Shown: piece after piece, positions 4,465 to 55,488 of the stretch | How positions within the stretch are numbered: position 1 is the first letter of the stretch | Layout: each line of letters opens with the position of its first letter | Origin: Christensenellaceae bacterium OttesenSCG-928-K19 | GTDB taxonomy: Bacteria > Bacillota > Clostridia > Christensenellales > Christensenellaceae | Reading direction: 5' to 3' | NCBI GenBank assembly: GCA_030266015.1 | Contig: JAJDHD010000001.1 | Span: 1-64,000, forward strand | Length of the DNA stretch: 64,000 nucleotides | Program-made: the position numbers and the translations under genes | The notes under the pieces: model-generated | Databases searched by the model: none | Told to the model about the DNA's origin: nothing | The model's input: only the letters and a program-made list of their open reading frames with translations

Positions 4465-4475
4465 TGTGGTATACT
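4465..4475 (+). promoter_or_regulatory. Extended -10 promoter placing the start site at a leaderless ATG
   Basis: TTTGTGGTATACT supplies TGG plus TATACT (4470-4475). A start site 7-8 bp downstream would fall at 4482-4483, which is the A of the ATG of the 27-residue peptide. No Shine-Dalgarno sequence could fit in the gap. Confidence 0.55.
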
Positions 4476-4482
4476 GTATGGC

Positions 4483-4566
4483 ATGAAACTGGGACTGAAA
4501 AGATTGATTGTACTTGCCATATTCGGAGGGGCGGCCGCTGTGTTGCTGCTTTTGAGCGCGCGATGA
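4483..4566 (+). CDS. 27-residue predicted membrane peptide overlapping apbE
   Basis: ATG at 4483 encodes a short basic start (MKLGLKR) followed by one hydrophobic stretch of about 17 residues ending in LLLLSAR. Its stop TGA overlaps the apbE start as ATGA (4563-4566), which is typical of translational coupling. Just upstream lies an extended -10 whose expected transcript start coincides with the ATG, so the mRNA may be leaderless. It could be a real single-pass peptide, a leader that carries ribosomes into apbE, or chance. No homologue is recognised. Confidence 0.45.
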   Translation: MKLGLKRLIVLAIFGGAAAVLLLLSAR

Positions 4567-5913: not shown

Positions 5914-6424
5914 CAAAACAAAAAAGTTTGTGCTGGCGGCTGTTTTGTGCGGCGTTGCACTGGCGCTGTCCCTTGTGGATAACGCTGTTTCCTCCGCCAT
6001 CGCGTTTTTACCGGGGTTTAAGTTGGGGCTGGCAAATGTGATGTCGCTCTATGCGCTTTACACTCTGGGCCTGCCATATGCCATGATGATTTTGCTGGCA
6101 AGGAGTTTTTTGACCGCCCTGCTTTCCGGCAATCTCACTATGCTGCTTTTTTCGCTCACAGGCGGTGCGGCAAGCATACTTGTCATGTTTGCGCTGGCAC
6201 GGGTTGTTTCCTTGATCAAAGCAAGCGTCTCCGGTGGGATCACACACAACTGTATGCAAGTGCTGGTGGCAGTGCTCTTTACCTCCACGCCTCAAACAGC
6301 GTATTATCTTCCCGTTTTAATTGGCATGGGCGCGGTAAGCGGGTTTGCCATGGGTGTAATCTGCAGGCTGGTCGTGCGAAAAATGCCGAATACAAAATTC
6401 GTTTATGGAACATACGAAAAATGA
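5897..6424 (+). CDS. Gx transporter family protein (heptaprenyl diphosphate synthase component I-like)
   Basis: Integral membrane protein of 175 residues with about five helices, matching the family annotated as heptaprenyl diphosphate synthase component I or Gx transporter (motif PGFKLGLANVMSLYALYTLG). ATG at 5897 has AAGGGGGG at the right distance and overlaps the preceding gene by 17 bases; a TTG start at 5873 is less likely. In flavin-based electron transfer loci the family accompanies ApbE and is thought to serve quinone-precursor or small-molecule transport; that role is an inference here. It closes the three-gene operon. Confidence 0.85.
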   Translation: MPLQDNKTKKFVLAAVLCGVALALSLVDNAVSSAIAFLPGFKLGLANVMSLYALYTLGLPYAMMILLARSFLTALLSGNLTMLLFSLTGGAASILVMFALARVVSLIKASVSGGITHNCMQVLVAVLFTSTPQTAYYLPVLIGMGAVSGFAMGVICRLVVRKMPNTKFVYGTYEK

Positions 6425-6533
6425 CATGAGATAATAGTATTCTATCGATATAGCCGAGGCCGTTGCCCCAGCACTGAGTTTTTTGGCTACTGGAGCAATA
6501 CAAAATGAAAAAACAGGATGGAGGAAATTTTCT

Positions 6534-41362: not shown

Positions 41363-41392
41363 ACTAGCGACAATAGGATAGGAAAGAAAATT

Positions 41393-41734
41393 ATGATAAA
41401 ACGAGCGTTTAAAAAAGATAATGCGGCCAACCTTTGCGATGGCAAAGGCACGGCTGTGATGGAGCACTGGCTTGTGGGCGAAGAATTAAGCCCGAATTTT
41501 ACCCAGTATTGCACGGTGACACTGGAGCCGGGCGCTTCTATAGGCGACCATGTGCATACAGGTGAGGCGGAGGTCTACCACATTATATCGGGCACGGGCG
41601 ATTATAGCGACAACGGGACGGTAGAGAAGGTTGGCCCCGGCGATGTGATGATCTGCTATGCAGGGGAGTCGCACGGCGTGGTAAACACCGGCACAGAGGA
41701 TTTGGCTTTCCTCACGGTTATTGTGACAAGCTGA
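41393..41734 (+). CDS. Cupin-domain protein in the glycyl radical operon
   Basis: Product of 113 residues, a single cupin barrel. Metal ligands are seen as GDHVHTGEAEVYH (two His and one Glu, then a further His) and GESHGVV in the second motif. It lies 30 bp after the glycyl radical enzyme and ahead of its activase. Cupins of this size bind a metal and a small molecule; here it may be an isomerase, a sensor or a sugar-binding accessory. No direct evidence picks among these. Confidence 0.85.
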   Translation: MIKRAFKKDNAANLCDGKGTAVMEHWLVGEELSPNFTQYCTVTLEPGASIGDHVHTGEAEVYHIISGTGDYSDNGTVEKVGPGDVMICYAGESHGVVNTGTEDLAFLTVIVTS

Positions 41735-41801
41735 CGCCAAGTGTATTAGTAAAAATGTCTTGCGAGGACTGGCGAGGCTGATGAATGGCACAGGTGCGCG
41801 G

Positions 41802-41826
41802 GAGCGGGGCTTTTTCAGCCCCGCTC
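41802..41826 (+). other. Strong intercistronic hairpin without T-run
   Basis: GAGCGGGGCT and AGCCCCGCTC form a perfect 10-bp stem with the loop TTTTC. It is not followed by T residues, so it is more likely an RNA-stability or processing element between the enzyme genes and the activase gene than a terminator. Confidence 0.6.
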
Positions 41827-41921
41827 GGCATCTGGATTATGGTGAAATGGCATATGTTTTTTATAAAAGACGGCAACGGGAGGGCGGCCTGTCAATTGGG
41901 TTGTTTTGTTGCCGGTAAGGA

Positions 41922-42866
41922 GTGGCATACAAATTGTTTTGGAGCGATAAAATAGAGCAGGAAGTGCATGGTGTTGTGTTTAACATAGAGAAATACCATG
42001 TGCACGACGGCGAAGGAATCAGGACAAATGTATTTTTAAAGGGGTGCAACCTGTGGTGCCCGTGGTGTTGCAACCCGGAATCGCAGGCATTTGAACCGCA
42101 AATTGCGGTGCATGAGAATATCTGCACGCGCTGTGGCTTGTGTGTGGGCTATTGCCCGCAGGGTGCGATTTCGCAACAGGAAGACGGCAGGGTGGTGACG
42201 GATAAAAAGAAGTGCACGCTTTGCGGCGTGTGCGAGGAGCGCTGCCTTCAATCGGCACGTGAGCTTTATGGCGAGGAAATGAGCGTTGCCGAGGTAATAG
42301 CTAAGGTGGAGCAGGACAGCGCCTACTATAAAAACTCGGGCGGTGGGCTTACCATCTCGGGCGGCGAGCCGTGTATGCAGGTGAAGTTTGCCAGTGAGCT
42401 GGCGCAGGCCGCGAGAAGAAGGTATATCCATGTGGCGATGGAAACGGCGGGTGCCGTTCCGTGGGAAGACATGTGGGAAGTGGCACAATATGTGGACGAT
42501 ATTCTGTTTGACATGAAATTCTCGGACGACGAGGGATTTGCAAAGGTGTCTAACCTGCCGCTGGAAATGGTAAAAGAAAATATGAAAAAACTGGTGGAAA
42601 ACGGCAAGCACGTGATTATGCGTTGCCCCATCATCCCGGGCTATAACTACACGCCCGAGCATTTTGATAATATCGCAAAATGGGCGGGAGAGCTGGGGAT
42701 CAAGGATATTGACCTCCTTGCGTTCCACCAGCTAGGGAAATATAAATACGATTCGCTGGAAATGGGGTATGGCCTGACAGAGCAAAAGGACATCAAGAAG
42801 GAAGACCTGGAGCCATACAAAGAAATGCTGATAGCAAAAGGATTTAACGCAGGAATAGGTGGTTGA
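41922..42866 (+). CDS. Glycyl-radical enzyme activating protein (radical SAM activase)
   Basis: Installs the glycyl radical on the enzyme encoded upstream, using S-adenosylmethionine. The radical SAM motif is GCNLWCPWCC (Cys42, Cys46, Cys49), after the family opening HVHDGEGIRTNVFLKG. Two additional ferredoxin clusters follow: Cys68/71/74/78 and Cys98/101/104/108. The start is uncertain: GTG 41922 touches AAGGAG, and TTG 41934 has 11-12 nt spacing and may be the real one. It ends overlapping the kinase gene. Confidence 0.95.
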   Translation: MAYKLFWSDKIEQEVHGVVFNIEKYHVHDGEGIRTNVFLKGCNLWCPWCCNPESQAFEPQIAVHENICTRCGLCVGYCPQGAISQQEDGRVVTDKKKCTLCGVCEERCLQSARELYGEEMSVAEVIAKVEQDSAYYKNSGGGLTISGGEPCMQVKFASELAQAARRRYIHVAMETAGAVPWEDMWEVAQYVDDILFDMKFSDDEGFAKVSNLPLEMVKENMKKLVENGKHVIMRCPIIPGYNYTPEHFDNIAKWAGELGIKDIDLLAFHQLGKYKYDSLEMGYGLTEQKDIKKEDLEPYKEMLIAKGFNAGIGG

Positions 42867-42868
42867 TT

Positions 42869-44413
42869 GTGAGAGCTACGGATTGTTTTTTGGGAATTGA
42901 CATGGGCACCAGCAGCGTCAAGGTGGGGATTTTTAAGCCTGATGGCACGCCGCTGGCATATGCAAATGCAGAATATCCGTTGTACACGCCAAAATCAGGA
43001 TGGGCGGAGCAAACGGTGGAGGATTGGTGGAAGGCCATTTGTATTGGTGTGCGCGAGGTTGTGGAAAAGAGCGGCGTGAAGCCTGCCGATATACTGGGCA
43101 TAGGCTATGATGCTACCTGCTGCACAGTGATGTTTGCCGACAAGGAAATGAATGTGCTGCGTCCTGCCATCATGTGGATGGATATGCGGGCGAGCAAGCA
43201 GGCCAAGGTGATGACGGCGACGGGCAACGACGCATTAAAATATAATGGGTTTGGAAACGCATCGGCGGAATCCATGCCCGCAAAGGCCTTGTGGGTGAAG
43301 GAGAATGAACCGGAGCTTTATAGTAAAGCAGAGCATGTGTTTGAATGCACTGATTGGTTGACATATAGATTGACAGGAAGGCTGACGGCCAGCATCGACA
43401 CGATAAGCCCGCGCTGGTATTACAACCGCGAAGAGGGCGGTTGGCCAGAGTCTTTCTACAGCGAGATTGGCCTACTGGATGTACTGAAAAAATTCCCGGA
43501 TGAGATTCTGGACATGGGTACGCTGGTGGGCGGCCTTTCAAAAGAGGCGGCGGCTGACCTGGGGTTGGTGGCAGGTACTCCCGTGGGTGAAGGCGGCGCG
43601 GATGCGTTTGTGGGCATGATTGGCCTCAATGTGGTGAAGGCGGGCAGCATCGCGCTTATCACCGGGTCGTCGCATTTGGCGCTGGGGCTTACGGAAAAGG
43701 AAATGCACAGCAAGGGTATGTGGGGTGCGTATCCGGATGCTGTTGTTCCCGGCCTGTATCTTGTGGAGGGCGGGCAAACATCTTCCGGCTCCATTGTGAA
43801 CTGGCTCAAGGAAAACTATTGTGGCAATATCGCGCAAATTGCGACGGCGCAAAACAAGAGTATATATGATATTTTGAATGAGGAAGCTTCTAAACTTCCG
43901 GTCGGGTCGGAAGGGCTGGTTGCACTGGATTATTTCCAGGGAAACCGCGCGCCCCATGCCGATCCAGATGTAAGGGGTATGTTCTATGGGCTGTCTTTAA
44001 AGCACAAGCCGCAGCACATGTACAGGGCAATTATTGAGTCGATTTGTTTTGGCACAGAGTCGATCATGCAGTCTTTCAGGGAAGGCGGCATGAATCCGGA
44101 TGGAATTTATATCTCCGGCGGTGCTGTAAAAAGCAGTCTTTGGGTGCAAATGCACGCGGATGTGTGCAACCTGCCCTTTTATATCCCGGAAGTTGTGGAA
44201 GCGCCTTGCCTGGGCTCGGCCATTCTTGGCTCCGTTGCATGCGGTGCGCATGAGTCGATCGTCTCGGCTGCGGCATCCATGGTCAAGGTCAAGGAAGTTG
44301 TGCAGCCGCGCAAAGAGGTACACGAGGAATATCAGTTTTATTATAAAAAATACGTGGAAGTATATGATATCTTAAAGGACTGGATGCACGATATTACCAC
44401 ACATGAATATTGA
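42869..44413 (+). CDS. FGGY-family carbohydrate kinase (xylulokinase-like)
   Basis: ATP-dependent sugar kinase of 514 residues. The N-terminal phosphate motif is GIDMGTSSVKVGIF, and the second FGGY signature region reads ISGGAVKSSLWVQMHADVCN. Members phosphorylate xylulose, ribulose, glycerol, gluconate and others; the closest look is xylulokinase-like, but specificity is not readable. GTG at 42869 has AGGTGG at 6-nt spacing; TTG 42863 overlapping the activase stop is an alternative. Together with the epimerase this suggests a phosphoketose intermediate. Confidence 0.9.
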   Translation: MRATDCFLGIDMGTSSVKVGIFKPDGTPLAYANAEYPLYTPKSGWAEQTVEDWWKAICIGVREVVEKSGVKPADILGIGYDATCCTVMFADKEMNVLRPAIMWMDMRASKQAKVMTATGNDALKYNGFGNASAESMPAKALWVKENEPELYSKAEHVFECTDWLTYRLTGRLTASIDTISPRWYYNREEGGWPESFYSEIGLLDVLKKFPDEILDMGTLVGGLSKEAAADLGLVAGTPVGEGGADAFVGMIGLNVVKAGSIALITGSSHLALGLTEKEMHSKGMWGAYPDAVVPGLYLVEGGQTSSGSIVNWLKENYCGNIAQIATAQNKSIYDILNEEASKLPVGSEGLVALDYFQGNRAPHADPDVRGMFYGLSLKHKPQHMYRAIIESICFGTESIMQSFREGGMNPDGIYISGGAVKSSLWVQMHADVCNLPFYIPEVVEAPCLGSAILGSVACGAHESIVSAAASMVKVKEVVQPRKEVHEEYQFYYKKYVEVYDILKDWMHDITTHEY

Positions 44414-44439
44414 TTCTGTGGGTGAAGTTGTAGTATAAT
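44410..44439 (+). promoter_or_regulatory. Internal promoter before the epimerase gene
   Basis: TTGATT overlapping the kinase stop, 18-bp spacer, TATAAT (44434-44439). Confidence 0.5.
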
Positions 44440-44481
44440 ACCAACTAAGTAATACGTATACATGAATGTAGGGAGAGAAGA

Positions 44482-45135
44482 TTGGCACAAATTTGGGTTT
44501 CACTGCTTGGCGCAGACGCCATGCACTATGGAAAAGCAATAGAAGGACTGATGGAAAGCGGCGCGGATTCCCTCCATATTGACGTTTTTGACGGGGTATA
44601 TGTACGCAATTTAGCGTTCAGCCCCAAAATAGTAAGCGATATCAAAGCAAAATATGATGTGCATGTGGATGTGCACTTGGAACTTTTTGAGCCGGAAAAC
44701 TATGTGGAAATGTTTTTGGATGCCGGGGCAGACGCCCTTGCTTATCAGGCAGGGACAACGCAGAACAATATTCGGCTGCTGGAGAAAATTCGATCCTATG
44801 GAGCGAAAGCTGGCCTGAGCCTGAACCCCTCTACTAATTTTGCAGACTATCAATACCTCACGGACTATATTGATTATATGATCCAGCTGAGTGTGGAGCC
44901 GGGCTTTGGCAACCAGATGTTCCAGGCGCAGGCGTTGGAGAAGATTAAAAACACAAGTGAATTGCTGCATAGCCTGGAGGCGGATATTCCGCTGGGTGTG
45001 GATGGTTCTGTGAACGAATCGAATGCGGCTGCCCTAAAGCAGGCTGGTGTGGAAATTTATATCATGGGCACGGCAATCACAAACGCGGCAGACCAAAAGG
45101 CTGTGGTGGCAAGCTACAAAGAAATGCTTCAATAA
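44482..45135 (+). CDS. Ribulose-phosphate 3-epimerase family protein
   Basis: TIM-barrel sugar-phosphate 3-epimerase of 217 residues. All expected metal/catalytic residues are present: His32 and Asp34 in SLHIDVFDG, His65 in DVHLELFEP, and Asp174 in GVDGSVN; LSVEPGFGNQ matches the phosphate-side loop. Departures from housekeeping RPE, such as VFDG for MDG and VEPGFGN for VNPGFGG, suggest a specialised paralogue (for example a hexulose-6-phosphate epimerase). TTG start at 44482 follows AGGGAGAG. Confidence 0.9.
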   Translation: MAQIWVSLLGADAMHYGKAIEGLMESGADSLHIDVFDGVYVRNLAFSPKIVSDIKAKYDVHVDVHLELFEPENYVEMFLDAGADALAYQAGTTQNNIRLLEKIRSYGAKAGLSLNPSTNFADYQYLTDYIDYMIQLSVEPGFGNQMFQAQALEKIKNTSELLHSLEADIPLGVDGSVNESNAAALKQAGVEIYIMGTAITNAADQKAVVASYKEMLQ

Positions 45136-45217
45136 AAAAGGCAAAAAACCAGGCCGCCAAAAAGACGGCCGGGACAAATATTTACCATAAAATTAAGAAA
45201 GCAGGTGGTTAAAAATT

Positions 45218-46294
45218 ATGGCAAAGATGAAAGCAGCGGTATTTTATGAACCCTTGAACATGAAGGTGGAAGAAGTTGACATTCCTGAAATTGCAGCAAA
45301 CGAGATGCTTATTAAAGTAAAGGCAGTTGGCATTTGCGGTTCAGACGTTAATTATTATTATGGCAACAGCCCGGTGGGCACGGCGGACGGCAAGGGCCCG
45401 TTGATTTTGGGACATGAGACGGCAGGCGTTGTGGAAGACCCGGGTATCCTGGGTGCTACCATGGGCTTTAAAAAAGGTGACAGGGTTGCGGTAAACCCGG
45501 TTGCGCCCTGCTTTGGCTGCGTTCCCTGCCTGAGCGGCGAGTTTAACGAATGCGACAATGTAAACGTATACGGCGTAAGCGCGGACGGCGCGTTTGCGGA
45601 ATACACAAAAGCGACGGCTTCCAATGTTTACAAAATTCCGGATGATATGTCCTTTGAGGGCGGCGGACTGGCAGAGCCTCTTGCCTGTGCAAACCACAGC
45701 GCGCGGAAGCTTCACATGCAGCCGGGCATGACGACAGTGGTGTTTGGTTGCGGCGCGATTGGCCTGATGGACGTACAGCTTGTAAGGGCTTGCGGTTCGG
45801 GTAAGGTAATTGCCGTTGACGTGGACGATTATAAGCTGGATATGGCGATTAAGCTGGGCGCGGACTACGCGATTAACACCATGGACAAAAATTCCAAGTA
45901 TTACACAGACAATATCGCGGCAAGGGTAAAAGAAGTGAATGGCGGACGCCTGGCACACAGGGCGCTGCTTCCCACGGGCGCTATGTCCGCATGGCAGCAG
46001 GCACTGGAAGTAACAAGGCCGGCTTCCACTATCGTATACTTTGGCCAGCCTTCTTCTGCGGATGCCGTGCTCAATATTCCCGCGTTGGAAGCGCTGCAGA
46101 TGGACAGGAATATCGGTTTTGCATGGCTTGCGCCGCTCGTTTGGGACAATGTATTCAATGAGTTGGCAAACGGCCAGGTGAAAGTAGACGATATTATTAC
46201 ACACAGGTTCTCGCTGGACGACATTGTGGAAGGCATCAAATTCATGAGGGAGTCCAAGGAAAAGAAGATCAAGGGCATGATGATCATCGACTGA
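45218..46294 (+). CDS. Zinc-dependent polyol/alcohol dehydrogenase (MDR family)
   Basis: NAD(P)-dependent medium-chain dehydrogenase of 358 residues. Catalytic zinc ligands include Cys40 (GICGSD) and His66-Glu67 (LGHETAG). The structural zinc site is complete: Cys98, Cys101, Cys104 and Cys112 in APCFGCVPCLSGEFNEC. The Rossmann fold is GCGAIGLMDVQL. It resembles sorbitol/xylitol-dehydrogenase-like members, so oxidation of a polyol to a ketose is plausible. Last gene of the glycyl radical operon, followed by two hairpins. Confidence 0.92.
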   Translation: MAKMKAAVFYEPLNMKVEEVDIPEIAANEMLIKVKAVGICGSDVNYYYGNSPVGTADGKGPLILGHETAGVVEDPGILGATMGFKKGDRVAVNPVAPCFGCVPCLSGEFNECDNVNVYGVSADGAFAEYTKATASNVYKIPDDMSFEGGGLAEPLACANHSARKLHMQPGMTTVVFGCGAIGLMDVQLVRACGSGKVIAVDVDDYKLDMAIKLGADYAINTMDKNSKYYTDNIAARVKEVNGGRLAHRALLPTGAMSAWQQALEVTRPASTIVYFGQPSSADAVLNIPALEALQMDRNIGFAWLAPLVWDNVFNELANGQVKVDDIITHRFSLDDIVEGIKFMRESKEKKIKGMMIID

Positions 46295-46308
46295 TTGCAT
46301 AGCCTGCA

Positions 46309-46379
46309 TATGCGGCGGCGAAAGCCGCCGCACACGACATAACAAAAAGAAGGGCATTTCCCGAAAGGGGATGCCCTTC
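46309..46379 (+). terminator. Double hairpin at the end of the glycyl radical operon
   Basis: GCGGCGG-CGAAAG-CCGCCGC is followed by GAAGGGCAT..ATGCCCTTC with a GAAA-like loop. There is no T-run, so termination efficiency is uncertain; it may instead protect the transcript end. Confidence 0.5.
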
Positions 46380-46441
46380 CATTACGTTTGTAAACTGGAG
46401 TAAAATAGTATAGTATCTTGAAAGATGAAAGGGGAAAGACC

Positions 46442-47131
46442 ATGGCAAAAAAAGTAGAGTATCCGGATTGGAAGTTGGATGGTGAGTATATTGAGAGCTG
46501 CAGCTGTGATGTAAGCTGCCCGTGCCTGGTATCTGCGCAAGCACACAACACGATATTGCCGGACTACCTGCCCTGCGATGTTATTTTGACATTTATTATT
46601 GATGAAGGGCATTTTGAAAAAGTAGACCTTTCGGGATGTAAATTCATTGTGGCGTTTTCCACGCCCAAGGAGATGTGCCTGAAAAACTGGGGAACGGCAT
46701 ACTATATCGATGCAAAAACGCCTGAGCAGCAAGCAGCGCTTACGCAGATTGTGACGGGTAAGGTGGGCGGCCCCACAGCCGGTATGGCAGACCATACAGA
46801 AGAAAACTATGGTGTGCGCCTGGTGGATATTGAATATGAAAGAAAAGATATTTATTCGCGCAAAGTTAACGTGGAAGATATCATGACAGTTAAGATAAAG
46901 GCCAAGATTGGTATGCACGATAATTTGCCGATTGTGATGGAAAATGCGAGCGACCTTGCCTATGTTGTGACACAGTCTTATGGCACAGATGTGCGCTACC
47001 AGGATCACATGAAAACGATGAACAATACCGGCAGGAACGCGTTCTATGGCCGCTATGTTTGGATTCCGGATTCTCCCATCGGTATCAAATATGACCGGTA
47101 TGAGAAAACCAAGAAAGCGAAGACGAAATAA
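46442..47131 (+). CDS. DUF1326 protein with Cys-rich motif
   Basis: Product of 229 residues. Near the N-terminus a cysteine cluster CSCDVSCPC (Cys20, 22, 26, 28) matches the DUF1326 signature, followed by the SGCKF and RDDY-like regions. DUF1326 proteins are uncharacterised and often encoded beside DUF2182 proteins, as at 49435 here. The Cys spacing suggests metal or thiol chemistry. ATG 46442 follows GAAAGGGG. A weak -10 (TATAGT near 46407) marks a separate transcription unit. Confidence 0.85.
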   Translation: MAKKVEYPDWKLDGEYIESCSCDVSCPCLVSAQAHNTILPDYLPCDVILTFIIDEGHFEKVDLSGCKFIVAFSTPKEMCLKNWGTAYYIDAKTPEQQAALTQIVTGKVGGPTAGMADHTEENYGVRLVDIEYERKDIYSRKVNVEDIMTVKIKAKIGMHDNLPIVMENASDLAYVVTQSYGTDVRYQDHMKTMNNTGRNAFYGRYVWIPDSPIGIKYDRYEKTKKAKTK

Positions 47132-47134
47132 CAC

Positions 47135-47563
47135 ATGGATGGTCAAAAAAGATTGAAATACCCGGCGGGCATTGCCGTCGTTATATTTGGCGTTTTGCTC
47201 CTGCTGCTGCTCCTGGTGATTGTACCGGTGTGCGATGGGCAGGTGGAGACCGCCTCGGGCAGCTTTATACCTATGAAATGCCACTGGATGAGCCAGGCAG
47301 TGCTGTTGTTTGCCTGCCTGCTCATTTTGCTGGGCATCCTGCTGATGGCATCGGCAGGGCGGGAGACGCGGCTGATGCTCTTGATTGTGACGGCGGCCTG
47401 CGCGGTCTGTGTCCTTTTGCTTGTGACTGCGCTGATTGGGGTATGCGGTTCGCCGACAATGCGGTGCAATTATGCCACAAAACCGGCGTTGCAGGTTTTC
47501 TCGGTGGTGCTGCTGGTGTTTAGCGGCGCGTCTATCATAAATGTAGCAAGGAAGAAAAAGTGA
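47135..47563 (+). CDS. DUF4418 family membrane protein
   Basis: Product of 142 residues with four hydrophobic helices, the hallmark MKCHW segment in the first external loop (FIPMKCHWMSQ) and a second Cys in GVCGSPTMRC. This matches DUF4418, known as a neighbour of FtsX-type ABC transporters in Clostridia. Function unknown. It lies 4 bp after the DUF1326 gene and overlaps the permease gene by 4 bp. Confidence 0.88.
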   Translation: MDGQKRLKYPAGIAVVIFGVLLLLLLLVIVPVCDGQVETASGSFIPMKCHWMSQAVLLFACLLILLGILLMASAGRETRLMLLIVTAACAVCVLLLVTALIGVCGSPTMRCNYATKPALQVFSVVLLVFSGASIINVARKKK

Positions 47564-48765
47564 ACCATAAAAAACTGACGGTATTTACACTTGCATTTGA
47601 AAATATAAAACGCAACCGTTTTCGCTCTGTTTGGCTGGTGATTTTGGTGGCTGTGTTTGCGTTCGCGATCTTTTGCGGCACGGTGCTCACCGGCAGCCTG
47701 GATAATGGCATAAAAACAATGGCTGGACGCGTGGGCGCGGACCTGATGGTGGTGGCGCAGGGCTATGAGGTGGATCTGGAAGACACGCTTCTCAGAAGCG
47801 AGCCGAGCACATTTTACCTGGATGGGGAAGTGCTGGAGGGCGTGCGCGGTATAGCTGGCGTGGAGGAGGCCTCCTCCCAGTTGTTTATTGCGTCGTTGGA
47901 TGCGGATTGCTGCACGGTGCCCGTGCAGCTCATCGGCTATGACCCGGAATCAGACTTCACGATTAAAAATTGGCTGGTGAATGTATGGGATGGCGCGCTT
48001 GGGCAGGATGATATTGTGGTTGGCAGCCTGATTCTGGCGGAACCGGGCGACCAGTTGGTGTTCTTTAACAAGGTGTATAATGTGGTGGCCAAGCTGGATG
48101 ATACCGGCATGGGGTTTGACTCATCCATCTTTATGAACCGGCATGCGGCACAGGTGATGATTGCCGATTCTGGCAGGTTGAGCGCGGACGAGCTGAAGCA
48201 CAGGGACGATCTGACATCTGCCGTGATGGTAAAGCTGTCGAAAGACGCGGACGCGCAGGAGGTGGCAGCAGCCATCCAAGCGGAATATCCGCAGACAGAT
48301 GCGGTAGTATCCAGCGACTTTATGCGTGATATTGCCTCGCGCCTGACAGACATCAGCAAGCTGACAATCGGCATTACGGTGTTGCTATGGGTGGTGGCGG
48401 TTATGGTGTTGTTCTTTGTGTTTTCTATTGTGATGGATTCGCGAAAGAAAGAGCTGGGACTGCTGATCGCGCTGGGGGCGACCAGGAAAAAGCTGGCGCG
48501 CATCATGCTGCTGGAATCATTTGTGATTACCCTGCTGGGTGCAATCTGCGGTATTTTTGCCGCTTGCCTGATTTTGTTCCCGTTCCAGACGCTGATTGCC
48601 GGAATGTTGGAGTTGCCTTATCTTTTGCCTTCCGCGCAGGTCATTTTCGCTTATATGATGCTTTCGCTGGGAGTTACGGTAGCGATTGGCCCCATTTCGT
48701 CGCTGTCCTTCATCCGTAAGCTGTCCAAAACGGATGTGTACTCTTTGATTAAGGAGAACGATTGA
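47560..48765 (+). CDS. FtsX/MacB-type ABC transporter permease
   Basis: Product of 401 residues. An N-terminal helix is followed by a long external MacB-like periplasmic-type domain, then three C-terminal helices with the coupling segment SRKKELGLLIALGATRKKL that contacts the ATPase. Such permeases act as mechanotransmitters or extrude lipids, peptides or cofactors rather than importing nutrients. GTG start at 47560 overlaps the previous gene. Confidence 0.9.
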   Translation: MNHKKLTVFTLAFENIKRNRFRSVWLVILVAVFAFAIFCGTVLTGSLDNGIKTMAGRVGADLMVVAQGYEVDLEDTLLRSEPSTFYLDGEVLEGVRGIAGVEEASSQLFIASLDADCCTVPVQLIGYDPESDFTIKNWLVNVWDGALGQDDIVVGSLILAEPGDQLVFFNKVYNVVAKLDDTGMGFDSSIFMNRHAAQVMIADSGRLSADELKHRDDLTSAVMVKLSKDADAQEVAAAIQAEYPQTDAVVSSDFMRDIASRLTDISKLTIGITVLLWVVAVMVLFFVFSIVMDSRKKELGLLIALGATRKKLARIMLLESFVITLLGAICGIFAACLILFPFQTLIAGMLELPYLLPSAQVIFAYMMLSLGVTVAIGPISSLSFIRKLSKTDVYSLIKEND

Positions 48766-49433
48766 TGCTGTTGAATGTGGAGAGCGTGTCGCATATATAT
48801 AATGAAGGGAAACCCAATAGGTGTGTTGCGGTCAACAATGTTTCGCTGCAGGTGGGGGAGAAGGATTTTTTATGCCTCACGGGTAAATCCGGCTGTGGTA
48901 AATCTACGCTGTTCCACATGATTTGCGGGTTGCTGCCTCCCACAAAAGGGAAAATATTGTTCCAGGATAATGATATTTGGCGGCAGGACGAAGCGCAGCT
49001 TGCCCTTATGCGGAACGCACAGATTGGGTATATACAGCAGGGGTCGGGGCTTTTGGCAAACTATACGGCGTTTGATAACGTACGGCTGCCCTTTTTTCTG
49101 CACAAAAGGGAGGGCGATGGCGCGGAGCGGGCGGCAATGCTGCTGGAGCGGGTTGGCCTTGCGAATAAAGCGGAAAACTATCCGGCGGAGCTTTCCGGCG
49201 GGGAACAGAAGCGGGTAGCAATTGTACGCGCACTGATGAACGATCCGGTCATGCTGGTGGCGGACGAGCCGACCGCGGATATTGATGAGGAGTCTACGCA
49301 CGAAGTGATGCGGTTTTTCTCGGAGCTTGCGCAAGAGGGCATGGCGGTGCTTGTCGCAACGCATGATATGGATATCCTGTCTTATGCGAACCGTGTGTTC
49401 AAGATGAAGGCGGGGGAGATCGGAGAAGAGTAG
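48765..49433 (+). CDS. ABC transporter ATP-binding protein (MacB/LolD type)
   Basis: Product of 222 residues with Walker A GKSGCGKST, signature LSGGEQKR, Walker B LVADEPTADID and the switch His in VATHDMD. These mark a complete ATPase for the FtsX-type permease encoded just upstream. ATG at 48765 overlaps the permease stop (TGATG) with AAGGAG at good distance. Confidence 0.93.
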   Translation: MLLNVESVSHIYNEGKPNRCVAVNNVSLQVGEKDFLCLTGKSGCGKSTLFHMICGLLPPTKGKILFQDNDIWRQDEAQLALMRNAQIGYIQQGSGLLANYTAFDNVRLPFFLHKREGDGAERAAMLLERVGLANKAENYPAELSGGEQKRVAIVRALMNDPVMLVADEPTADIDEESTHEVMRFFSELAQEGMAVLVATHDMDILSYANRVFKMKAGEIGEE

Positions 49434-49434
49434 G

Positions 49435-50289
49435 TTGGAACAACAAATAGCGCAGGGGCAACAGAAAAAAAAGTTTTTGAGTAGAGACCAGTGGGTAATC
49501 TTGATCATTGTTGTGGCACTGACACTTGTGGCATGGATCTACCTTGCGGCAAACGGGTCGGACAGCGACATGGCCGGAATGTCTATGGACATGACGGGGG
49601 CAAATGATCCCTCCATGGACCAGCAAATGGCAGAGCGCTTGGGGGCGGCGGCATACAAGCCAACCATGCCTGGGTTTTCTATGTTTGTACCTATGTGGAT
49701 TATCATGTGTATTGGCATGATGCTTCCCACGGCGGTTCCCATGTTTTTCACTTACCATACGGTAAGTAAGCGGAGAGCGCAGGGGGGTAGCGCCATTGGC
49801 CCGACCTTGCTGTTTGTCTTGGGATATGTGCTGCTATGGGCGTTGTTTGGTGTTGCGTGCTGGGTTGTGGGTACGCTGATCATTAACCTTGTGGGTGATC
49901 TCATCACATCATGGGCAGGGAATACGATTGGGGTTGCCGCCATCTTCCTGTTTGCGGGAGTCTACCAGTTAACACCGCTAAAAAACGCGTGCCTCAAGGG
50001 GTGCCAGCATCCGCTGCAATTTGTGATGCATAAATGGAAGGAAGGCATGGGTGGTGCGTTGCTTATGGGGATGCGCCATGGCATTGAGTGTATCGGGTGC
50101 TGTTGGGCGCTTATGCTGGTGCTTTTTCCACTGGGCATGATGAACCTGTTCTGGATGGGGATATTTACGATTGTCATGTTCTTTGAAAAAAATGCAAAAT
50201 ATGGAACGATAATAAGCAAAATGGCGGGAGTGCTATTCTTGATTGCTGGCGGGGTACTAATGACTGTTAGTTTGATTGGGATGATGTAA
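49435..50289 (+). CDS. DUF2182 membrane protein with Met-rich external loop
   Basis: Product of 284 residues. After the first helix (about 19-38) comes a Met-rich loop with DMAGMSMDMTG and MDQQM, then the family hallmarks MWIIMCIGMMLP and GMRHGIECIGCCWALM. DUF2182 is predicted to bind metal; the Met, His and Cys side chains are those favoured by copper, but the metal is not known. TTG start at 49435 follows GGAGAAGAG, 2 bp after the ABC ATPase gene. Confidence 0.87.
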   Translation: MEQQIAQGQQKKKFLSRDQWVILIIVVALTLVAWIYLAANGSDSDMAGMSMDMTGANDPSMDQQMAERLGAAAYKPTMPGFSMFVPMWIIMCIGMMLPTAVPMFFTYHTVSKRRAQGGSAIGPTLLFVLGYVLLWALFGVACWVVGTLIINLVGDLITSWAGNTIGVAAIFLFAGVYQLTPLKNACLKGCQHPLQFVMHKWKEGMGGALLMGMRHGIECIGCCWALMLVLFPLGMMNLFWMGIFTIVMFFEKNAKYGTIISKMAGVLFLIAGGVLMTVSLIGMM

Positions 50290-50427: not shown

Positions 50428-50456
50428 TTGACAAAATGAAGCCGGAATGATATTAT
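50428..50456 (+). promoter_or_regulatory. Main promoter P2 of the importer operon
   Basis: TTGACA (50428-50433), 17-bp spacer ending in TGA, TATTAT (50451-50456). Confidence 0.8.
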
Positions 50457-50590: not shown

Positions 50591-52084
50591 GTGAGCGGTA
50601 ATGAAGTAATATTGCAAATGAAAGACATCAGCAAATCTTTCCCTGGCGTTCAGGCGCTGAGTGGTGTTTCCTATGAGTTGCAAAAAGGGGAAGTTCATGC
50701 ATTGATGGGGGAAAATGGCGCAGGCAAGTCTACACTTATGAAAATACTGACGGGCGCCTACAAAGAAGATACCGGCGAAATCATTTTTGACGGGGCACCC
50801 TTTATGAAAAGGGATGAGCGTACAACGCTTTCGGCTGGCATCGCAATGATTCACCAGGAGCTGAGTTTTGTTCCTTACCTTACGATAGCGGAAAATCTTT
50901 TCCTGGGTAGGGAAATCATGAAAAGCGGCGTGCTGGACAAGCGCCGGATGAATGAATTGGCAGGTGAATGGCTGAAAAACTTGGGGGTGGATCTCGACCC
51001 CAAAAGAAAGATGAACTCGCTGATGGTTTCCGAGCAACAGATGGTGGAAATCACAAAAGCGGTTTCTTACAACGCGAAAATCATTATTATGGATGAGCCT
51101 ACATCCGCAATTACAGACAGGGAAGTTGAAAAGCTGTTTGGCACGATCCGCGACCTGAAAGCAAAGGGTGTTGCAATCGTGTATATTTCCCATAAAATGG
51201 ATGAAATATTGCAGATCAGCGACCGTGTAACTGTGTTCCGCGATGGGGAGCTTATCAGCACAAATGACGCAAAAGACATTACGATGGACCAGATCGTAAT
51301 TGATATGGTGGGCCGCGAGCTTACTGAAGTATATCCGGAAAAAGAACATAATCTGGGTGAAGAGATGCTGCGCGTAGAGGGATTGAAGCGCGAGGGCGTC
51401 TTTAATGATATTTCCTTTACAGTGCACCGTGGCGAGGTGGTTGGATTTGCCGGGCTGATGGGCAGCGGCAGAACGGAGACCATGCGGTGCATCTATGGCC
51501 TGGATAAGCTGGACGCGGGAAAAATATTCATACAGGGCAAGGAAGTAGCAATTAAGCATCCGAGGGATGCGATTAAATATGGCATTGGCCTTGTGAATGA
51601 GGACAGGAAAGGCGTGGGGCTGTTGCTCCCGCTGTCCGTAAAGCATAACCTGACACTTTCTAATCTGGACAAGTATTTTAAATCGCCGATCATTCAACGG
51701 GCAAAAGAAAACGAACTGGCGGAAAGAATGATCAAGGAGCTGAGAATAAAAACTCCCAGCCGCAACCAGCTCGTGAACAATCTTTCGGGTGGCAACCAGC
51801 AAAAAGTAGTGCTTGGCAAGATTTTGCTGGATGAGTCGGATATCCTGATCATGGACGAACCAACGCGCGGCATTGATATTGGCGCAAAGTCGGAGATTTA
51901 TCACATGATCAATGATCTCGCGAAGAGCGGTAAAGCAGTTATCGTGGTATCTTCCGAAATGCCGGAAATTGTCGGTCTTGCCGACAAGGTTATCGTCATG
52001 CACGAGGGGGCGATAAAAGGCGAGATAACAGATCCGAATGAAATACAACAAGAAAAAATTATGGAATTTGCGATTGCGCAATAG
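50591..52084 (+). CDS. Ribose-type sugar ABC importer ATPase (two fused ATPase domains)
   Basis: Product of 497 residues with two ABC domains in tandem, as in RbsA/MglA. The first has Walker A GENGAGKST and Walker B MDEPTSAITD, with the usual degraded signature (VSEQQMVEI). The second has a weak Walker A GLMGSGRTE but an intact signature NLSGGNQQK and MDEPTRGID. This asymmetry is normal for the class. Works with the permease and binding protein downstream to import a monosaccharide or polyol. GTG start at 50591 follows AAGGAG. Confidence 0.95.
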   Translation: MSGNEVILQMKDISKSFPGVQALSGVSYELQKGEVHALMGENGAGKSTLMKILTGAYKEDTGEIIFDGAPFMKRDERTTLSAGIAMIHQELSFVPYLTIAENLFLGREIMKSGVLDKRRMNELAGEWLKNLGVDLDPKRKMNSLMVSEQQMVEITKAVSYNAKIIIMDEPTSAITDREVEKLFGTIRDLKAKGVAIVYISHKMDEILQISDRVTVFRDGELISTNDAKDITMDQIVIDMVGRELTEVYPEKEHNLGEEMLRVEGLKREGVFNDISFTVHRGEVVGFAGLMGSGRTETMRCIYGLDKLDAGKIFIQGKEVAIKHPRDAIKYGIGLVNEDRKGVGLLLPLSVKHNLTLSNLDKYFKSPIIQRAKENELAERMIKELRIKTPSRNQLVNNLSGGNQQKVVLGKILLDESDILIMDEPTRGIDIGAKSEIYHMINDLAKSGKAVIVVSSEMPEIVGLADKVIVMHEGAIKGEITDPNEIQQEKIMEFAIAQ

Positions 52085-52099
52085 GGAGGAAGTATTGTT

Positions 52100-53062
52100 A
52101 TGGAAGAATTAACCAAGAAAAACATGGCAGGGGATATTTTTAGAAAATTCGGCATTGTGATTGCGCTGGCTATTCTATTTATTGTATTCTCTGCAATAAC
52201 GAATGCCTTTTTTACACCGGCTAACCTTCTGACCATTCTGGTTCAGACCTCGATCAACATCCTTTTGGCAATCGCAACAACATTCATTGTGTTGACAGGC
52301 GGCATAGACCTTTCATCTGGTTCTGTGCTTGCGATTGCGGGCGTTGTGTTTGCAATGTTTGCAAAAGAGGTAGATGGCGTGCCGGAATATCCGGTTGTTG
52401 TGCCTGTTGTTATGGGTATCCTGGTAGGCTTGCTGTTTGGCCTGTTTAACGGCGTAATTGTTGCAAAAGCAAAGGTAGCGCCCTTCATCGTAACGCTTGG
52501 AACAATGACGATTGCGCGTGGCGCAGCACTGCTGCTGGCGGATGGCCGTCCGGTTTCCGGAATGGCGCAGGGCTTTAAGGATTTTGCAGGCAAATCGCCG
52601 CTGGGACTTCCCAACATCGTTATTGTGATGATTATTATGGCAGTGATTTTCACCTTTATCCTGACCAAAACAAAATTTGGACGCTATGTTTACGCGATTG
52701 GCGGTAATGAAGAAGCTGCAAGGGCGTCTGGTATTGCGACAAGCAACATTAAACTGGTTGTATACACAATGGCGGGTGCTATCATTGGCCTTGCGGGCGT
52801 GTTGCAGGCATGCCGCATCAACGTGGGACAGCCCAATGTAGGCCAGGGCTATGAAATGAACGCGATCTCTGCTGTTGTTATTGGCGGTACATCCCTTTCG
52901 GGCGGTGTTGGCTCCATGTGGGGTACGCTCATCGGTGCGTTTATCATTGGTATACTGAATAACGGCCTTGATATGCTGGGTGTAAGCTCTTACTGGCAGC
53001 AGGTTGTCAGTGGTGCAATCATCATTGGCGCAGTTATGATGGACAGGACGAATAAAAAGTAG
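52100..53062 (+). CDS. Ribose-type sugar ABC importer permease
   Basis: Product of 320 residues with eight to ten membrane helices. Family segments include LTGGIDLSSGSVLA near residue 75, GLFNGVIVAKAKVAPFIVTLG, and AISAVVIGGTSLSGGVGSMWG near the end, as in RbsC. Membrane channel of the importer. GGGAGGAAG lies before ATG 52100, 15 bp after the ATPase gene. Confidence 0.95.
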   Translation: MEELTKKNMAGDIFRKFGIVIALAILFIVFSAITNAFFTPANLLTILVQTSINILLAIATTFIVLTGGIDLSSGSVLAIAGVVFAMFAKEVDGVPEYPVVVPVVMGILVGLLFGLFNGVIVAKAKVAPFIVTLGTMTIARGAALLLADGRPVSGMAQGFKDFAGKSPLGLPNIVIVMIIMAVIFTFILTKTKFGRYVYAIGGNEEAARASGIATSNIKLVVYTMAGAIIGLAGVLQACRINVGQPNVGQGYEMNAISAVVIGGTSLSGGVGSMWGTLIGAFIIGILNNGLDMLGVSSYWQQVVSGAIIIGAVMMDRTNKK

Positions 53063-53077
53063 TATAGTATATAAAGT

Positions 53078-53097
53078 TTGCGGCAATTATGCCGCAA
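53078..53097 (+). other. Intercistronic hairpin before the binding-protein gene
   Basis: TTGCGGCA-ATTA-TGCCGCAA is a perfect 8-bp stem followed by an AT-rich stretch. Placed between permease and binding-protein genes, such hairpins commonly raise binding-protein mRNA relative to the rest. Confidence 0.6.
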
Positions 53098-53134
53098 TAT
53101 AATAATAATTCATTTTGGAAAATAGGAGGAAGAA

Positions 53135-54199
53135 ATGAAAAAAGTATTATTAGTAGCATTGGTAGTAGTATTGGCAGTAGCAATGTTCGCTGGTTGTTCT
53201 TCAACGAAGGAACCGGCGGCGGAATCACCGGCAGCAGAAGAGCCTGCAGCTGAAGAACCGGCAGCAGAAGAGCCTGCAGCTGAAGAACCGGCAGCAGAAG
53301 AGCCTGCAGCTGAAGAACCGGCTGGTGATGACCTTGACTATGCTTCCATGAACTTTGGTTACCTCATCCAGACACAGGTGACAGAGTACATGCTCAGCGT
53401 GGCAGAAGGTGCACAGGATGCATGTGATGAACTGGGAATTAAACTGACAACAAATGATGCAGACGGCGACCCGGCTCTTCAGATTTCTCAGTGCGAAAGC
53501 ATGATCGCTTCCGGTATGGACGCTATCCTTGTTTCTGCAGTTGATGCTGACGCTTGCGCGCCTATCGTAGAAAAATGCGCTGAAGCAAACATTCCTTGCA
53601 TTGCTGTAACAAACCTGTTCAACCCGCCGGTAGAGCCTCTTGCGTCTATTCTTTCTGACGACACAGAAGCAGGCAGGATTGCAACTCGCGAGCTTTGCGA
53701 AGCAATTGGCGGCGAAGGCAAGATCGGTACAATCCGTGGCCTTGCTGGTCAGTCTTCAGAAGTATTCCGTGGCGATGGCATGAATGAAGTTCTGGAAAAT
53801 GAGTATCCGGACGTAGAGCTGGTTGCTGATGATATCGGAAACTGGGCACGTGACGAAGCAATGGAAATCACAGAGAACTGGATCCAGAAGTATGGTGAAG
53901 AGCTTAAAGGTATCTTCTGCCAGAACGACGAAATGGGTATCGGCGCTGCGAATGCGATCGAAAATGCTGGCCTGACAGGCAAAATCCAGGTAACGGCTGT
54001 TGACGCTGTTGCGGATGCACAGAGCTATATCGAGAGCGGCGCAATCTATGCGGACGTTGCACAGGATCCTCATGCACAGGGTTATGAAGGCGTAATGGCT
54101 GCTGTTGCAGTTCTCAAAGGTGAGACTGTAGAAAAGCTTGTTTACACACCTCTTAACGTAATCAACAAAGACAACGCTGCTGAGTACTATGGTGGCTGA
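53135..54199 (+). CDS. Sugar ABC importer substrate-binding lipoprotein (periplasmic binding protein type I)
   Basis: Product of 354 residues. The signal peptide ends MFAGC (Cys21). A linker of repeated PAAEE units follows, encoded by a 30-bp tandem repeat. The binding domain then shows the ribose-binding-protein-type fold: [48 protein letters not shown] and [18 protein letters not shown]. It captures the transported sugar or polyol. AGGAGG precedes the ATG. Confidence 0.95.
53227..53316 (+). repeat. 30-bp tandem repeat in the binding-protein linker, about 3 copies
   Basis: Three exact 30-bp units from 53227 plus a partial fourth encode alternating PAAEE blocks. The unit is a multiple of three, so copy-number change would lengthen or shorten the linker in frame. 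Confidence 0.9.
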
Positions 54200-54234
54200 G
54201 TAAAACACAGTAAACAGTAACAGACATAAAATGT

Positions 54235-54270
54235 GGCTACGGGCTTGCGCCCGTAGCCGCAATAAATATC
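54235..54270 (+). terminator. Strong terminator after the importer operon
   Basis: GGCTACGGGC-TTGC-GCCCGTAGCC, a perfect 10-bp stem, followed at short distance by a T-run. Confidence 0.85.
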
Positions 54271-54321
54271 ATTTTTTTTCAAAAGTTTTTAAAGATGGTT
54301 TATAAAGAAAGGGCGAATAAG

Positions 54322-55488
54322 ATGGATAAAGTAAAAGTTGGCGTAGTCGGCTGCGGTGATATCTCAACTATTTATTTCACAAATATCGCAAAATTTGATA
54401 ATCTCGAAGTGGTTGCCATTGCGGATTTGATGATGGAGAGAGCAGAAGAAAAAGCAAAAGAATGGGGCGGAAAGGCAATGAGCGTTGACGACCTTATGGC
54501 TAATCCCGAAGTAGAAGTCGTTCTTAATCTAACAATCCCTGCCGCCCATTATGAAATTGATATGAAAGCGCTGAATGCAGGAAAGCACGTTTACAGCGAA
54601 AAAGCGCTTGCTGTTACACTGGAAGATGGCAAGGAAATTTTGGATCTTGCAAAGAAAAAAGGACTTTTGGTTGGTTGCGCGCCCGACACATTCCTTGGTG
54701 CACGCCCCCAAACAATGATAAAGATGATTAACGATGGGTGGATTGGCAAACCGATTGCCGCTACGGCATTTATGGTTTGCTATGGCCATGAAATTTGGCA
54801 TCCAAACCCGGAATTTTACTATAAAACAGGCGCAGGCCCGATGTTTGACATGGGCCCGTACTATATGACGGCACTTGTTTCCATGCTTGGGCCAGCAAAG
54901 AGGATCAGTGGTGCGACGTCCATGACCTATGAAAAGAGGTTGATTTCAAGCCAGCCCAACGCAGGCAAGATGATTGATGTGGAAGTGCCCACTACAGTGA
55001 GCGGTACAATTGAATTTGCTAACGGTGCGATTGCGTCCACTATCATGAGCTTTGATATTTGGGATAGCAACCTGCCTCGCCTTGAGATATACGGAACAGA
55101 AGGAACGGTTAGCATGACAGATCCAGACCCGCTTGCTGGGCCGGATATCTTCCATGGCCAGACAAAATTCAGACGTGCGAGTGCATCGGACTGGACAGAG
55201 CTGCCGTATGACCTGCCGAGGAAGGAAGAAGCGACGCCGTGGGATACGGTACCGTCCATATACAACTATGACTTCAACAGCCGTGGACTTGGCCTGGCCG
55301 ATATGGCAAGGGCGATCCGCAAGGGCGGTGACTTCCGTGCGAATGGCGACATGGCATACCATGTGCTGGAGATGATGCACGGCTTCTATCTTGCTGCGGA
55401 CAGCGGTAAATATTACGACATGCAGAGCACATGCAAGATGCCTGACGTAATGCCGATGAATATGCAGGAATTCTCCATGGGGGAATAA
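54322..55488 (+). CDS. Gfo/Idh/MocA family oxidoreductase
   Basis: NAD(P)-dependent sugar or inositol dehydrogenase-type protein of 388 residues. The N-terminal Rossmann motif is GVVGCGDIS, the conserved EKALAVTLEDG carries the typical catalytic-site Glu-Lys, and the C-terminal domain has GPMFDMGPYYMTALVSMLGP. It acts on carbohydrates and cyclitols; the substrate is unknown. ATG 54322 follows AAAGGG. Own transcription unit between two terminators, but context ties it to the sugar importer. Confidence 0.92.
   Translation: MDKVKVGVVGCGDISTIYFTNIAKFDNLEVVAIADLMMERAEEKAKEWGGKAMSVDDLMANPEVEVVLNLTIPAAHYEIDMKALNAGKHVYSEKALAVTLEDGKEILDLAKKKGLLVGCAPDTFLGARPQTMIKMINDGWIGKPIAATAFMVCYGHEIWHPNPEFYYKTGAGPMFDMGPYYMTALVSMLGPAKRISGATSMTYEKRLISSQPNAGKMIDVEVPTTVSGTIEFANGAIASTIMSFDIWDSNLPRLEIYGTEGTVSMTDPDPLAGPDIFHGQTKFRRASASDWTELPYDLPRKEEATPWDTVPSIYNYDFNSRGLGLADMARAIRKGGDFRANGDMAYHVLEMMHGFYLAADSGKYYDMQSTCKMPDVMPMNMQEFSMGE

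Follow-up and report, generated by a model that had tools for sequence, protein, structure and literature searches.

A conserved set of five genes in a gut-type anaerobic bacterium is a genuine unit beyond chance and probably serves in the handling of copper or another sulphur-loving metal. The families are known; the combination is new. The set (hereinafter designated the cassette) spans positions 46442-50289 of the analysed 64,000-nucleotide stretch of DNA (hereinafter designated the window). An initial sequence-only reading had described five tightly packed genes, and all five open reading frames are in place, with gaps of 3, -4, -4 and 1 bp:

46442..47131, forward strand: DUF1326 protein, 229 aa (PF07040, 105.5 bits; Pfam cut-off 25)
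47135..47563, forward strand: DUF4418 protein, 142 aa (PF14387, 87.3 bits; Pfam cut-off 27)
47560..48765, forward strand: FtsX/MacB-type permease, 401 aa, GTG start (PF02687, FtsX, 58.2 bits, cut-off 25.5; PF12704, MacB_PCD, 30.8 bits, cut-off 27)
48762..49433, forward strand: LolD/FtsE/MacB-like ABC ATPase, 223 aa, TTG start (PF00005, ABC_tran, 114.1 bits; cut-off 25)
49435..50289, forward strand: PpoB2 protein (PF09948, former DUF2182), 284 aa, TTG start (191.5 bits; cut-off 28.7)

The identical five-gene order recurs in genomes G187, G126 and G152 and in a Lachnospiraceae MAG contig (JAIDFQ010000072, hereinafter L002), so that the cassette is complete in all five genomes (the window plus four others), and the cassette FtsX proteins form a single clade (support 95/95). 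The retained order and the single FtsX clade indicate co-inheritance of the ABC genes with the DUF genes. The motifs singled out by the sequence-only reading were located in the proteins (within ESCSCDVSCPC, PMKCHW, DMAGMSMDMTG and RHGIECIGCCW), and ligands are kept in close as well as distant homologues, with key Cys and Met positions invariant or almost so across distant relatives in alignments of four families. The sequence-only reading had named loss of the ligands in close homologues, or separate inheritance of the ABC genes, as grounds for its rejection; neither was observed. Together with the recurrence of the order in four other genomes, these near-invariant positions argue that the cassette is not a chance arrangement.

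A lead to function comes from PpoB2. The sequence-only reading had called the family uncharacterised and knew of no function for the combination; PF09948 in fact carries a literature-based Pfam name, PpoB2, a copper chaperone. According to a review (PMC2855505), PpoB2 of Marinomonas mediterranea is needed for copper supply to tyrosinase; it is the single experimentally studied member of PF09948 behind the copper role. The window protein belongs to the same family (PF09948, COG5486, formerly DUF2182), its residues 87-274 covering positions 3-187 of the 188-position profile, and shares its invariant residues. The Marinomonas gene lies in an operon with tyrosinase, whereas the window has no tyrosinase there and places the ABC module between PpoB2 and DUF1326.

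Ten positions are invariant among 14 aligned PF09948 sequences (W88, M91, M95, M96, C186, C190, C219, C222, C223 and W224). The window protein carries all of the family residues, namely WxxMxxxMM in TM2 (where M87 stands beside M91, M95 and M96 as a further Met), the CxxxC motif (C186xxxC190) and CxxCCW in TM5 (C219xxC222C223W). About six TM helices are predicted, with the Met-rich loop outside and C186xxxC190 in the cytosol; Lys and Arg are richer in the predicted inner than in the outer loops in 14/14 PF09948 and 10/10 DUF4418 proteins. The Met-rich loop (Met at 7 of 43 residues) is not enriched over the protein's own high Met content (p = 0.08), and the loop is weak or absent in part of the family. 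The copper importer Ctr1 has three TM helices, the second with MxxxM, as well as a Met-rich segment on the exofacial side and Cys in the cytosol. PpoB2, with about six helices, resembles it in layout alone, and no homology is claimed.

DUF1326, at the other end of the cassette, is the most conserved among the proteins compared (81-83% identity between the window protein and three relatives). Its family membership is supported both by a Pfam match above the cut-off and by the CxCxxxCPC cluster. The full Cys set comprises C20-x-C22-x3-C26-P-C28 plus C45, of which C45 is invariant and the other four almost invariant in 15 sequences. The protein is predicted to reside in the cytosol, as it lacks any hydrophobic segment. 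Neither DUF1326 nor PpoB2 has a relative among solved structures by phmmer and profile searches; three weak DUF1326 profile matches (E 0.18-0.91) were judged to be chance. Structures predicted from four-sequence alignments gave an unusable DUF1326 model (mean pLDDT 42) and an all-helical PpoB2 model (pLDDT 69), for which Foldseek found no fold match in the PDB better than E 0.9. The models are too poor for the sites to be placed by structure prediction. A literature search turned up no paper naming DUF1326 or DUF2182, and DUF4418 is named by one paper, in an expression table only.

DUF1326 and PF09948 also occur as a pair outside the cassette. Ten plasmid loci from Alpha- and Betaproteobacteria, Actinomycetota and haloarchaea were examined, and in 9 of them the two genes are adjacent. 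Among the nine paired loci, one adjoins an HMA protein and a heavy-metal P-type ATPase, one a CusA/CzcA RND pump, and one SBP56, which, by the title of PMC5739008, is a Cu-dependent methanethiol oxidase family; in the other six no copper gene is evident nearby. The pairs of proteobacteria, actinobacteria and haloarchaea share two families with the cassette, usually side by side, but unlike the cassette carry no DUF4418-FtsX-ATPase insertion. In viral contigs, a PpoB2 alignment search gave three matches, with DUF1326-DUF2182 pairs on phage-like contigs too, while single-protein queries and a DUF4418 alignment gave none. DUF4418 had no match on 72,556 plasmids.

The sequence-only reading took the transporter for a specific partner of the DUF pair, a view that the data do not support: DUF4418-FtsX-ATPase also stands alone and is, as judged by gene context, an independent module that occurs in FTR1/P19 iron-uptake clusters and elsewhere. 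Its permease has the features of the type VII ABC superfamily (an FtsX C-terminal domain, a MacB-like core, four TM segments and a large outer domain), with a predicted outside loop at 43-273 after TM1. MacB, LolCDE and FtsEX have in common with it the FtsX and MacB_PCD domains and a LolD/FtsE-like ATPase, and solved relatives include 5xu1 and MacB. All NCBIfam equivalog scores fall below cut-off (lolCE 24.2 vs 362.45 required, MacB 151.4 vs 966), including the best matches of the ATPase (LolD 193.4 vs 307.75, FtsE 186.9 vs 264.85). What sets the cassette apart from these systems is a vicinal Cys pair in the outer domain, a DUF4418 partner and the lack of an adaptor protein. The pair, C117-C118 in the window FtsX, lies in the extracytoplasmic domain; among aligned DUF4418-linked FtsX proteins C118 is kept in 21/21 and C117 in 20/21, and the CC motif is absent from the outer domain of eight control FtsX proteins. 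The 21 proteins form one side of a branch with 100/100 support, and the window FtsX, with its CC and DUF4418 neighbour, is of this type. DUF4418 itself is predicted from positive-inside topology to have four TM helices and to expose C33, C49, C104, M109 and C111, all invariant in 10 sequences from three contexts, on the extracytoplasmic side.

Four complete FTR1-P19-FtrD clusters in genomes of the same taxonomic order contain the DUF4418-CC-FtsX-ATPase module; these clusters are of the type known as Fet in Campylobacter and bfeUO-sifABCDE in Bifidobacterium, and their other two FtsX proteins lack CC in the outer domain. Elsewhere, DUF4418 modules have nitrogenase-like enzymes and PLP enzymes of cysteine/cystathionine synthase type in their vicinity. 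Given these iron clusters and sulphur-metabolism neighbours, the module need not serve copper. The cassette could be a cut-down FTR1/P19 (Fet) relative that helps to feed Fe2+ to many Fe-S enzymes, and the cassette FtsX does group with the FTR1-linked FtsX proteins (a 12-row clade, 99/99). We consider this very unlikely, since DUF1326 and PpoB2 here replace the missing FTR1, P19 and FtrD, none of which was recognised next to the cassette (FTR1 and P19 neither at 38-58 kb of the window nor in the flanks of the four other cassettes), the Cys/Met ligands are soft, and PpoB2 is tied to copper.

The same clusters also raise a thiol/disulphide redox role, in which a DUF4418 and CC-FtsX relay would supply or export reducing equivalents outside, as proposed for FetBCD in Campylobacter iron uptake, with DUF1326 and PpoB2 adding thiols. 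When iron is limiting, C. jejuni needs FetBCD, the ABC transporter of its Fet cluster; the source paper (PMC10783030) calls the substrate unclear and has the transporter provide reducing power in its model. The vicinal Cys pairs could form disulphides, and the cysteine/cystathionine synthase-type and nitrogenase-like enzymes near other DUF4418 modules fit such chemistry. But the invariant Met residues (M109 of DUF4418, MxxxMM of PpoB2) fit metal binding rather than disulphide exchange, and the cassette has no thioredoxin-fold or FMN protein, which leaves this role unlikely, if worth keeping in view.

The surroundings of the cassette comprise the following:

38891..46294, forward strand: glycyl radical enzyme, cupin, activase, FGGY kinase, ribulose-phosphate 3-epimerase-like protein, Zn alcohol dehydrogenase (Pfam, NCBIfam)
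46349..46379, forward strand: terminator-like hairpin with a short T-containing tail, just 3' of the alcohol dehydrogenase gene (scan and RNA fold)
50428..50456, forward strand: sigma-70-like promoter match before the RbsA gene (TTGACA-17-TATTAT, extended -10; consensus scan, 11/12)
50591..55488, forward strand: RbsA, RbsC, RbsB sugar-type ABC importer and Gfo/Idh oxidoreductase (Pfam, NCBIfam)

A second strong hairpin lies upstream of the cassette at about 46311-46332, and positions 46300-46400 have a folding energy of -43.5 kcal/mol (z -6.2). The promoter match ahead of RbsA, by consensus only, suggests that the cassette may be a transcription unit of its own. Rfam gave no match at 38-58 kb. 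In both G126 and G152, orthologues of the left-side glycyl-radical gene set lie close to the cassette, and the importer and Gfo/Idh orthologues adjoin it too; in L002 the importer does. In G187 the cassette and the importer next to it are both diverged. Adjacency to the Rbs importer might look like strong evidence of joint function but is weak by itself, as each genome of the better-covered genera gives 22-57 RbsB-like hits. The orthologous wider locus shared with G126 and G152 is stronger evidence than importer adjacency, but these two genomes are closely related and count nearly as one case. An importer of this type does not need the cassette, as related loci in G075 and G054 have the importer and Gfo/Idh without it.

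This neighbourhood raises the prospect that DUF1326 and PpoB2 supply copper or another metal to a dedicated enzyme in or near the sugar locus, assisted by the ABC module. The published role of PpoB2 is enzyme-specific metallation (PMC2855505), and the shared glycyl-radical and importer genes fit such a client. Yet no known copper enzyme was recognised in the locus, the cassette-free loci of G075 and G054 speak against a dedicated link, and copper enzymes are rare in strict anaerobes, to which the organism probably belongs; we regard this assignment as quite doubtful. Alternatively, the system might export or modify an organosulphur compound made by the sugar/glycyl-radical pathway, with the metal-like residues doing thiol or sulphide chemistry on it. 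The top named-enzyme score of the glycyl radical enzyme is indeed for 3-sulfopropanediol dehydratase, at 587 of the 1000 bits required and so far below cut-off, and in two roseobacters a DMSP demethylase accompanies the DUF1326-PF09948 pair. The kinase, epimerase and Gfo/Idh genes, however, fit a plain sugar or polyol, and the diverged G187 cassette and importer come with no glycyl radical enzyme above 47% identity, making an organosulphur role highly improbable.

The first proposal is supported in part: metal or thiol handling agrees with invariant ligand-type residues, with predicted sites on both membrane sides and with the copper function published for one PF09948 member. We tentatively favor, at somewhat less than even confidence, a single membrane-bound system for a soft metal, Cu(I) being the likeliest, which would pass between a Cys-cluster protein in the cytosol and outward-facing Cys/Met sites. 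From the predicted topology, DUF4418, FtsX and the Met-rich PpoB2 loop would provide the outward sites, that of FtsX and DUF4418 being formed jointly, while the PpoB2 CxxxC and DUF1326 would make up the cytosolic side. PpoB2 would act as a metal conduit, Ctr1-like in layout, and DUF1326 as its cytosolic metal donor or acceptor. The FtsX-ATPase, as a type VII (mechanotransmission) ABC machine, would spend ATP on loading or unloading metal at the outer site. A bolder version, a new kind of energised soft-metal machine in which the type VII outer domain (FtsX Cys-Cys with the DUF4418 Cys4-Met site) loads or strips Cu(I) at the cell surface, PpoB2 is the conduit, DUF1326 the chaperone, and the DUF4418-CC-FtsX-ATPase core a power module swapped among copper, iron and sulphur systems, is possible though rather unlikely.

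As to direction, we lean toward withdrawal of Cu(I) that would protect the cytosol of this anaerobe, because no copper enzyme was recognised in the locus, which does encode an activase of the radical-SAM class, and enzymes of that class are inactivated by Cu(I) under anoxic conditions (PMC9576991). CopA, CopZ, CsoR and haem genes were not recognised among the genes examined adjoining the cassette.

The cassette links DUF1326 to a testable set of partners. For the ABC proteins of P19/Fet clusters, the DUF4418-linked CC-FtsX and its Cys4-Met partner offer a precise, mutable target. The pairing of this module with a copper-chaperone family in place of an iron permease suggests that DUF4418-FtsX may not be specific to iron but may serve soft metals or thiols in general.

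The five genes of the cassette were located as open reading frames at 46442-50289 on the forward strand, where the sequence-only reading had placed them, and Pfam profiles support its family names for all five products: DUF1326, DUF4418, an FtsX/MacB-type permease, an ABC ATPase and a PF09948 protein (PpoB2, formerly DUF2182). The packing is as tight as described, with gaps of 3, -4, -4 and 1 bp. The DUF1326 gene starts at ATG 46442 or, alternatively, at an upstream TTG at 46418, and the FtsX, ATPase and PF09948 genes start with GTG, TTG and TTG, respectively. A terminator-like hairpin (scan and RNA folding; a consensus-type match only) lies 5' of the cassette and a strong promoter match (likewise to consensus only) precedes RbsA, the next gene, so the five genes probably form a transcription unit of their own.

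PF09948 and DUF1326 each score above cut-off in four of the 297 genomes of the order. PF09948 does so only in the window's own genome in a phylum sample of 398 genomes, as does DUF1326 in a sample of 237. All four positive genomes keep the genes together in the identical order DUF1326-DUF4418-FtsX-ATPase-PF09948, and a fifth copy is found on a Lachnospiraceae MAG contig (L002); the system is rare, yet complete wherever present. In a maximum-likelihood tree the five cassette FtsX proteins form a single branch (95/95), from which FTR1-linked FtsX proteins are separate (98/97). The co-inheritance of ABC and DUF genes on which the earlier reading depended is thereby borne out: since the cassette FtsX proteins form one branch and the set is complete where present, the genes were, as far as these genomes tell, joined once and then inherited together. 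One positive genome, G187, carries an extra, solitary DUF1326 gene besides the cassette (L040:8857-9519, contig 17), with no PpoB2 in view and neighboring ORFs that resemble, by eye, rubrerythrin and adenylosuccinate lyase.

Judged from gene content, the cassette is a meeting point of a DUF1326/PF09948 module and a DUF4418-FtsX-ATPase module. The former occurs as a two-gene pair lacking the ABC module in 9/10 plasmid loci, the tenth having PF09948 without an annotated DUF1326. On two roseobacter plasmids (L032:5821-12463 and L044:5196-7751) the pair adjoins a DMSP demethylase gene, with SBP56 also near in one of the two; the SBP56 family is known as a Cu-dependent methanethiol oxidase (PMC5739008), and these loci suggest that the pair supplies copper for the metabolism of methanethiol. 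Pairs on IMG/VR contigs (L083:1262-2745 and L085:5191-6687) share the contig with a phage capsid gene (L083) or a large terminase gene (L085), and are either soft-metal genes borne by phage or prophage or mis-binned host flanks. In the samples of the order and the phylum, 21 loci have DUF4418 but neither DUF1326 nor PF09948, mostly beside FtsX and ATPase, and the three-gene module lies inside four complete FTR1-P19-FtrD iron clusters. Four loci (L070, L077, L079 and L081) place DUF4418, together with FtsX and ATPase where these were found, beside nitrogenase-like (Oxidored_nitro) proteins; L077 and L079 have a truncated FtsX or none that was found, and a RACo-type protein is a further neighbor among the four. 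Several loci of the module, several of these four included, have SsuA/NMT1-type importers or cysteine/cystathionine-synthase-type PLP enzymes. At L078:4031-11373 the module's neighbors include a protein that combines a NosZ-like cupredoxin domain with a Fer4_5 ferredoxin region, another cupredoxin, a dihaem cytochrome of the MauG type and a beta-propeller lipoprotein.

The ligands proposed from the window are conserved in homologs of DUF1326, PF09948 and DUF4418. Across 15 aligned DUF1326 sequences from Bacillota, Pseudomonadota, Actinomycetota and haloarchaea, C45 is invariant and C20, C22, C26 and C28 are nearly so, one sequence starting past the Cys cluster, perhaps through a mis-annotated start. 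Invariant residues are W88, M91, M95, M96, C186, C190, C219, C222, C223 and W224 in PF09948 (n = 14) and C33, C49, C104, M109 and C111 in DUF4418 (n = 10). A further DUF4418 copy, L082, has apparently lost two of the invariant Cys, and no FtsX turned up beside it. The sequence-only reading missed a vicinal Cys pair in the large outer domain of FtsX (C117-C118 in the window, mostly followed by Ser or Thr). Among DUF4418-linked FtsX proteins, C118 is present in 21/21 and C117 in 20/21; the pair is absent from the outer domain of eight other FtsX proteins of the same FTR1/P19 clusters. We found no prior description of this motif in the open-licence literature.

Topology predicted from hydropathy and charge places the invariant DUF4418 residues, the PpoB2 Met-rich loop and the Cys-Cys-bearing FtsX domain outside and the PpoB2 CxxxC inside; DUF1326, which has no hydrophobic segment, is predicted to be cytosolic. 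Lys/Arg are commoner in predicted cytosolic than outer loops in 14/14 PF09948 and 10/10 DUF4418 sequences. The soft ligands would thus line up in a row: the FtsX Cys pair, the Cys4-Met set of DUF4418 and the Met loop of PpoB2 on the outside, the TM2 Met and TM5 Cys residues of PpoB2 within the membrane, and the CxxxC of PpoB2 and DUF1326 on the inside.

Conservation along this predicted row is uneven. Identities between the window and G126, G152 (two other cassette-bearing genomes of the order) and L002 are 81-83% for DUF1326, the highest among the proteins compared, 59-67% for PpoB2, 54-57% for the ATPase, 49-55% for FtsX and merely 28-32% for DUF4418; as a yardstick, the linked glycyl radical enzyme shows 79% (G126, G152) and RbsA 68-74%. 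DUF4418 has diverged widely but kept its five ligand-type residues, the pattern expected of a metal or redox site. The strongest alternative to metal handling is a thiol-redox system modeled on the proposal for FetBCD (PMC10783030).

The cassette keeps company with a sugar locus. In G126 and G152 it is flanked by orthologs of the window's glycyl radical enzyme (79%), importer (74% for RbsA), Gfo/Idh (73%), kinase and alcohol dehydrogenase (71% each), activase (67%) and epimerase (48%). In the window it lies upstream of RbsA and in the same orientation; in G126 and G152 the two diverge, and in L002 it is downstream of RbsB. Company kept through such rearrangement suggests that cassette and locus are linked. 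Against this link stand the tens of RbsB-like genes in these genomes, the close relationship between G126 and G152, and two genomes (G075 and G054) whose related importer-Gfo/Idh locus lacks the cassette. The glycyl radical enzyme has a GCVE motif, which we take to fit a dehydratase/lyase type. Glycyl radical enzyme repertoires are very large in the family: G152 and G187 are among the genomes concerned, with as many as 15-16 matching stretches in one genome, and RbsB-like matches number 22-57 per genome in the same genera. In the window, an RbsB-like binding protein (53135-54199) has a repeated 11-residue stretch after its signal region, and an ApbE flavin transferase gene (265.6 bits) is followed by small membrane-protein genes at 4437-7721, where no FMN-binding protein was identified.

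FtsX/MacB-type proteins belong to the type VII ABC systems, which act on the outer side by mechanotransmission. In Marinomonas mediterranea, PpoB2 is reported to be required for copper transfer to a tyrosinase but not for that to a second copper oxidase (PMC2855505). Based on these two precedents, we propose for the metal-handling reading that the ABC pair would power the loading of metal onto, or its release from, the outer DUF4418/FtsX site, with PpoB2 ferrying metal to or from DUF1326. As PMC2855505 is a review, copper as the metal would be one step removed from the original evidence. As to direction, Cu(I) inactivates radical SAM enzymes in the absence of oxygen (PMC9576991) and the adjoining locus contains a radical-SAM activase gene, so we lean, on plausibility, towards a system that draws Cu(I) out of the cytosol. 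The cassette is real and conserved, and it combines known families in a new way; its metal, direction and physiological role are predictions. The combination, the Cys-Cys motif and the uneven conservation together make the cassette merit a bench test.
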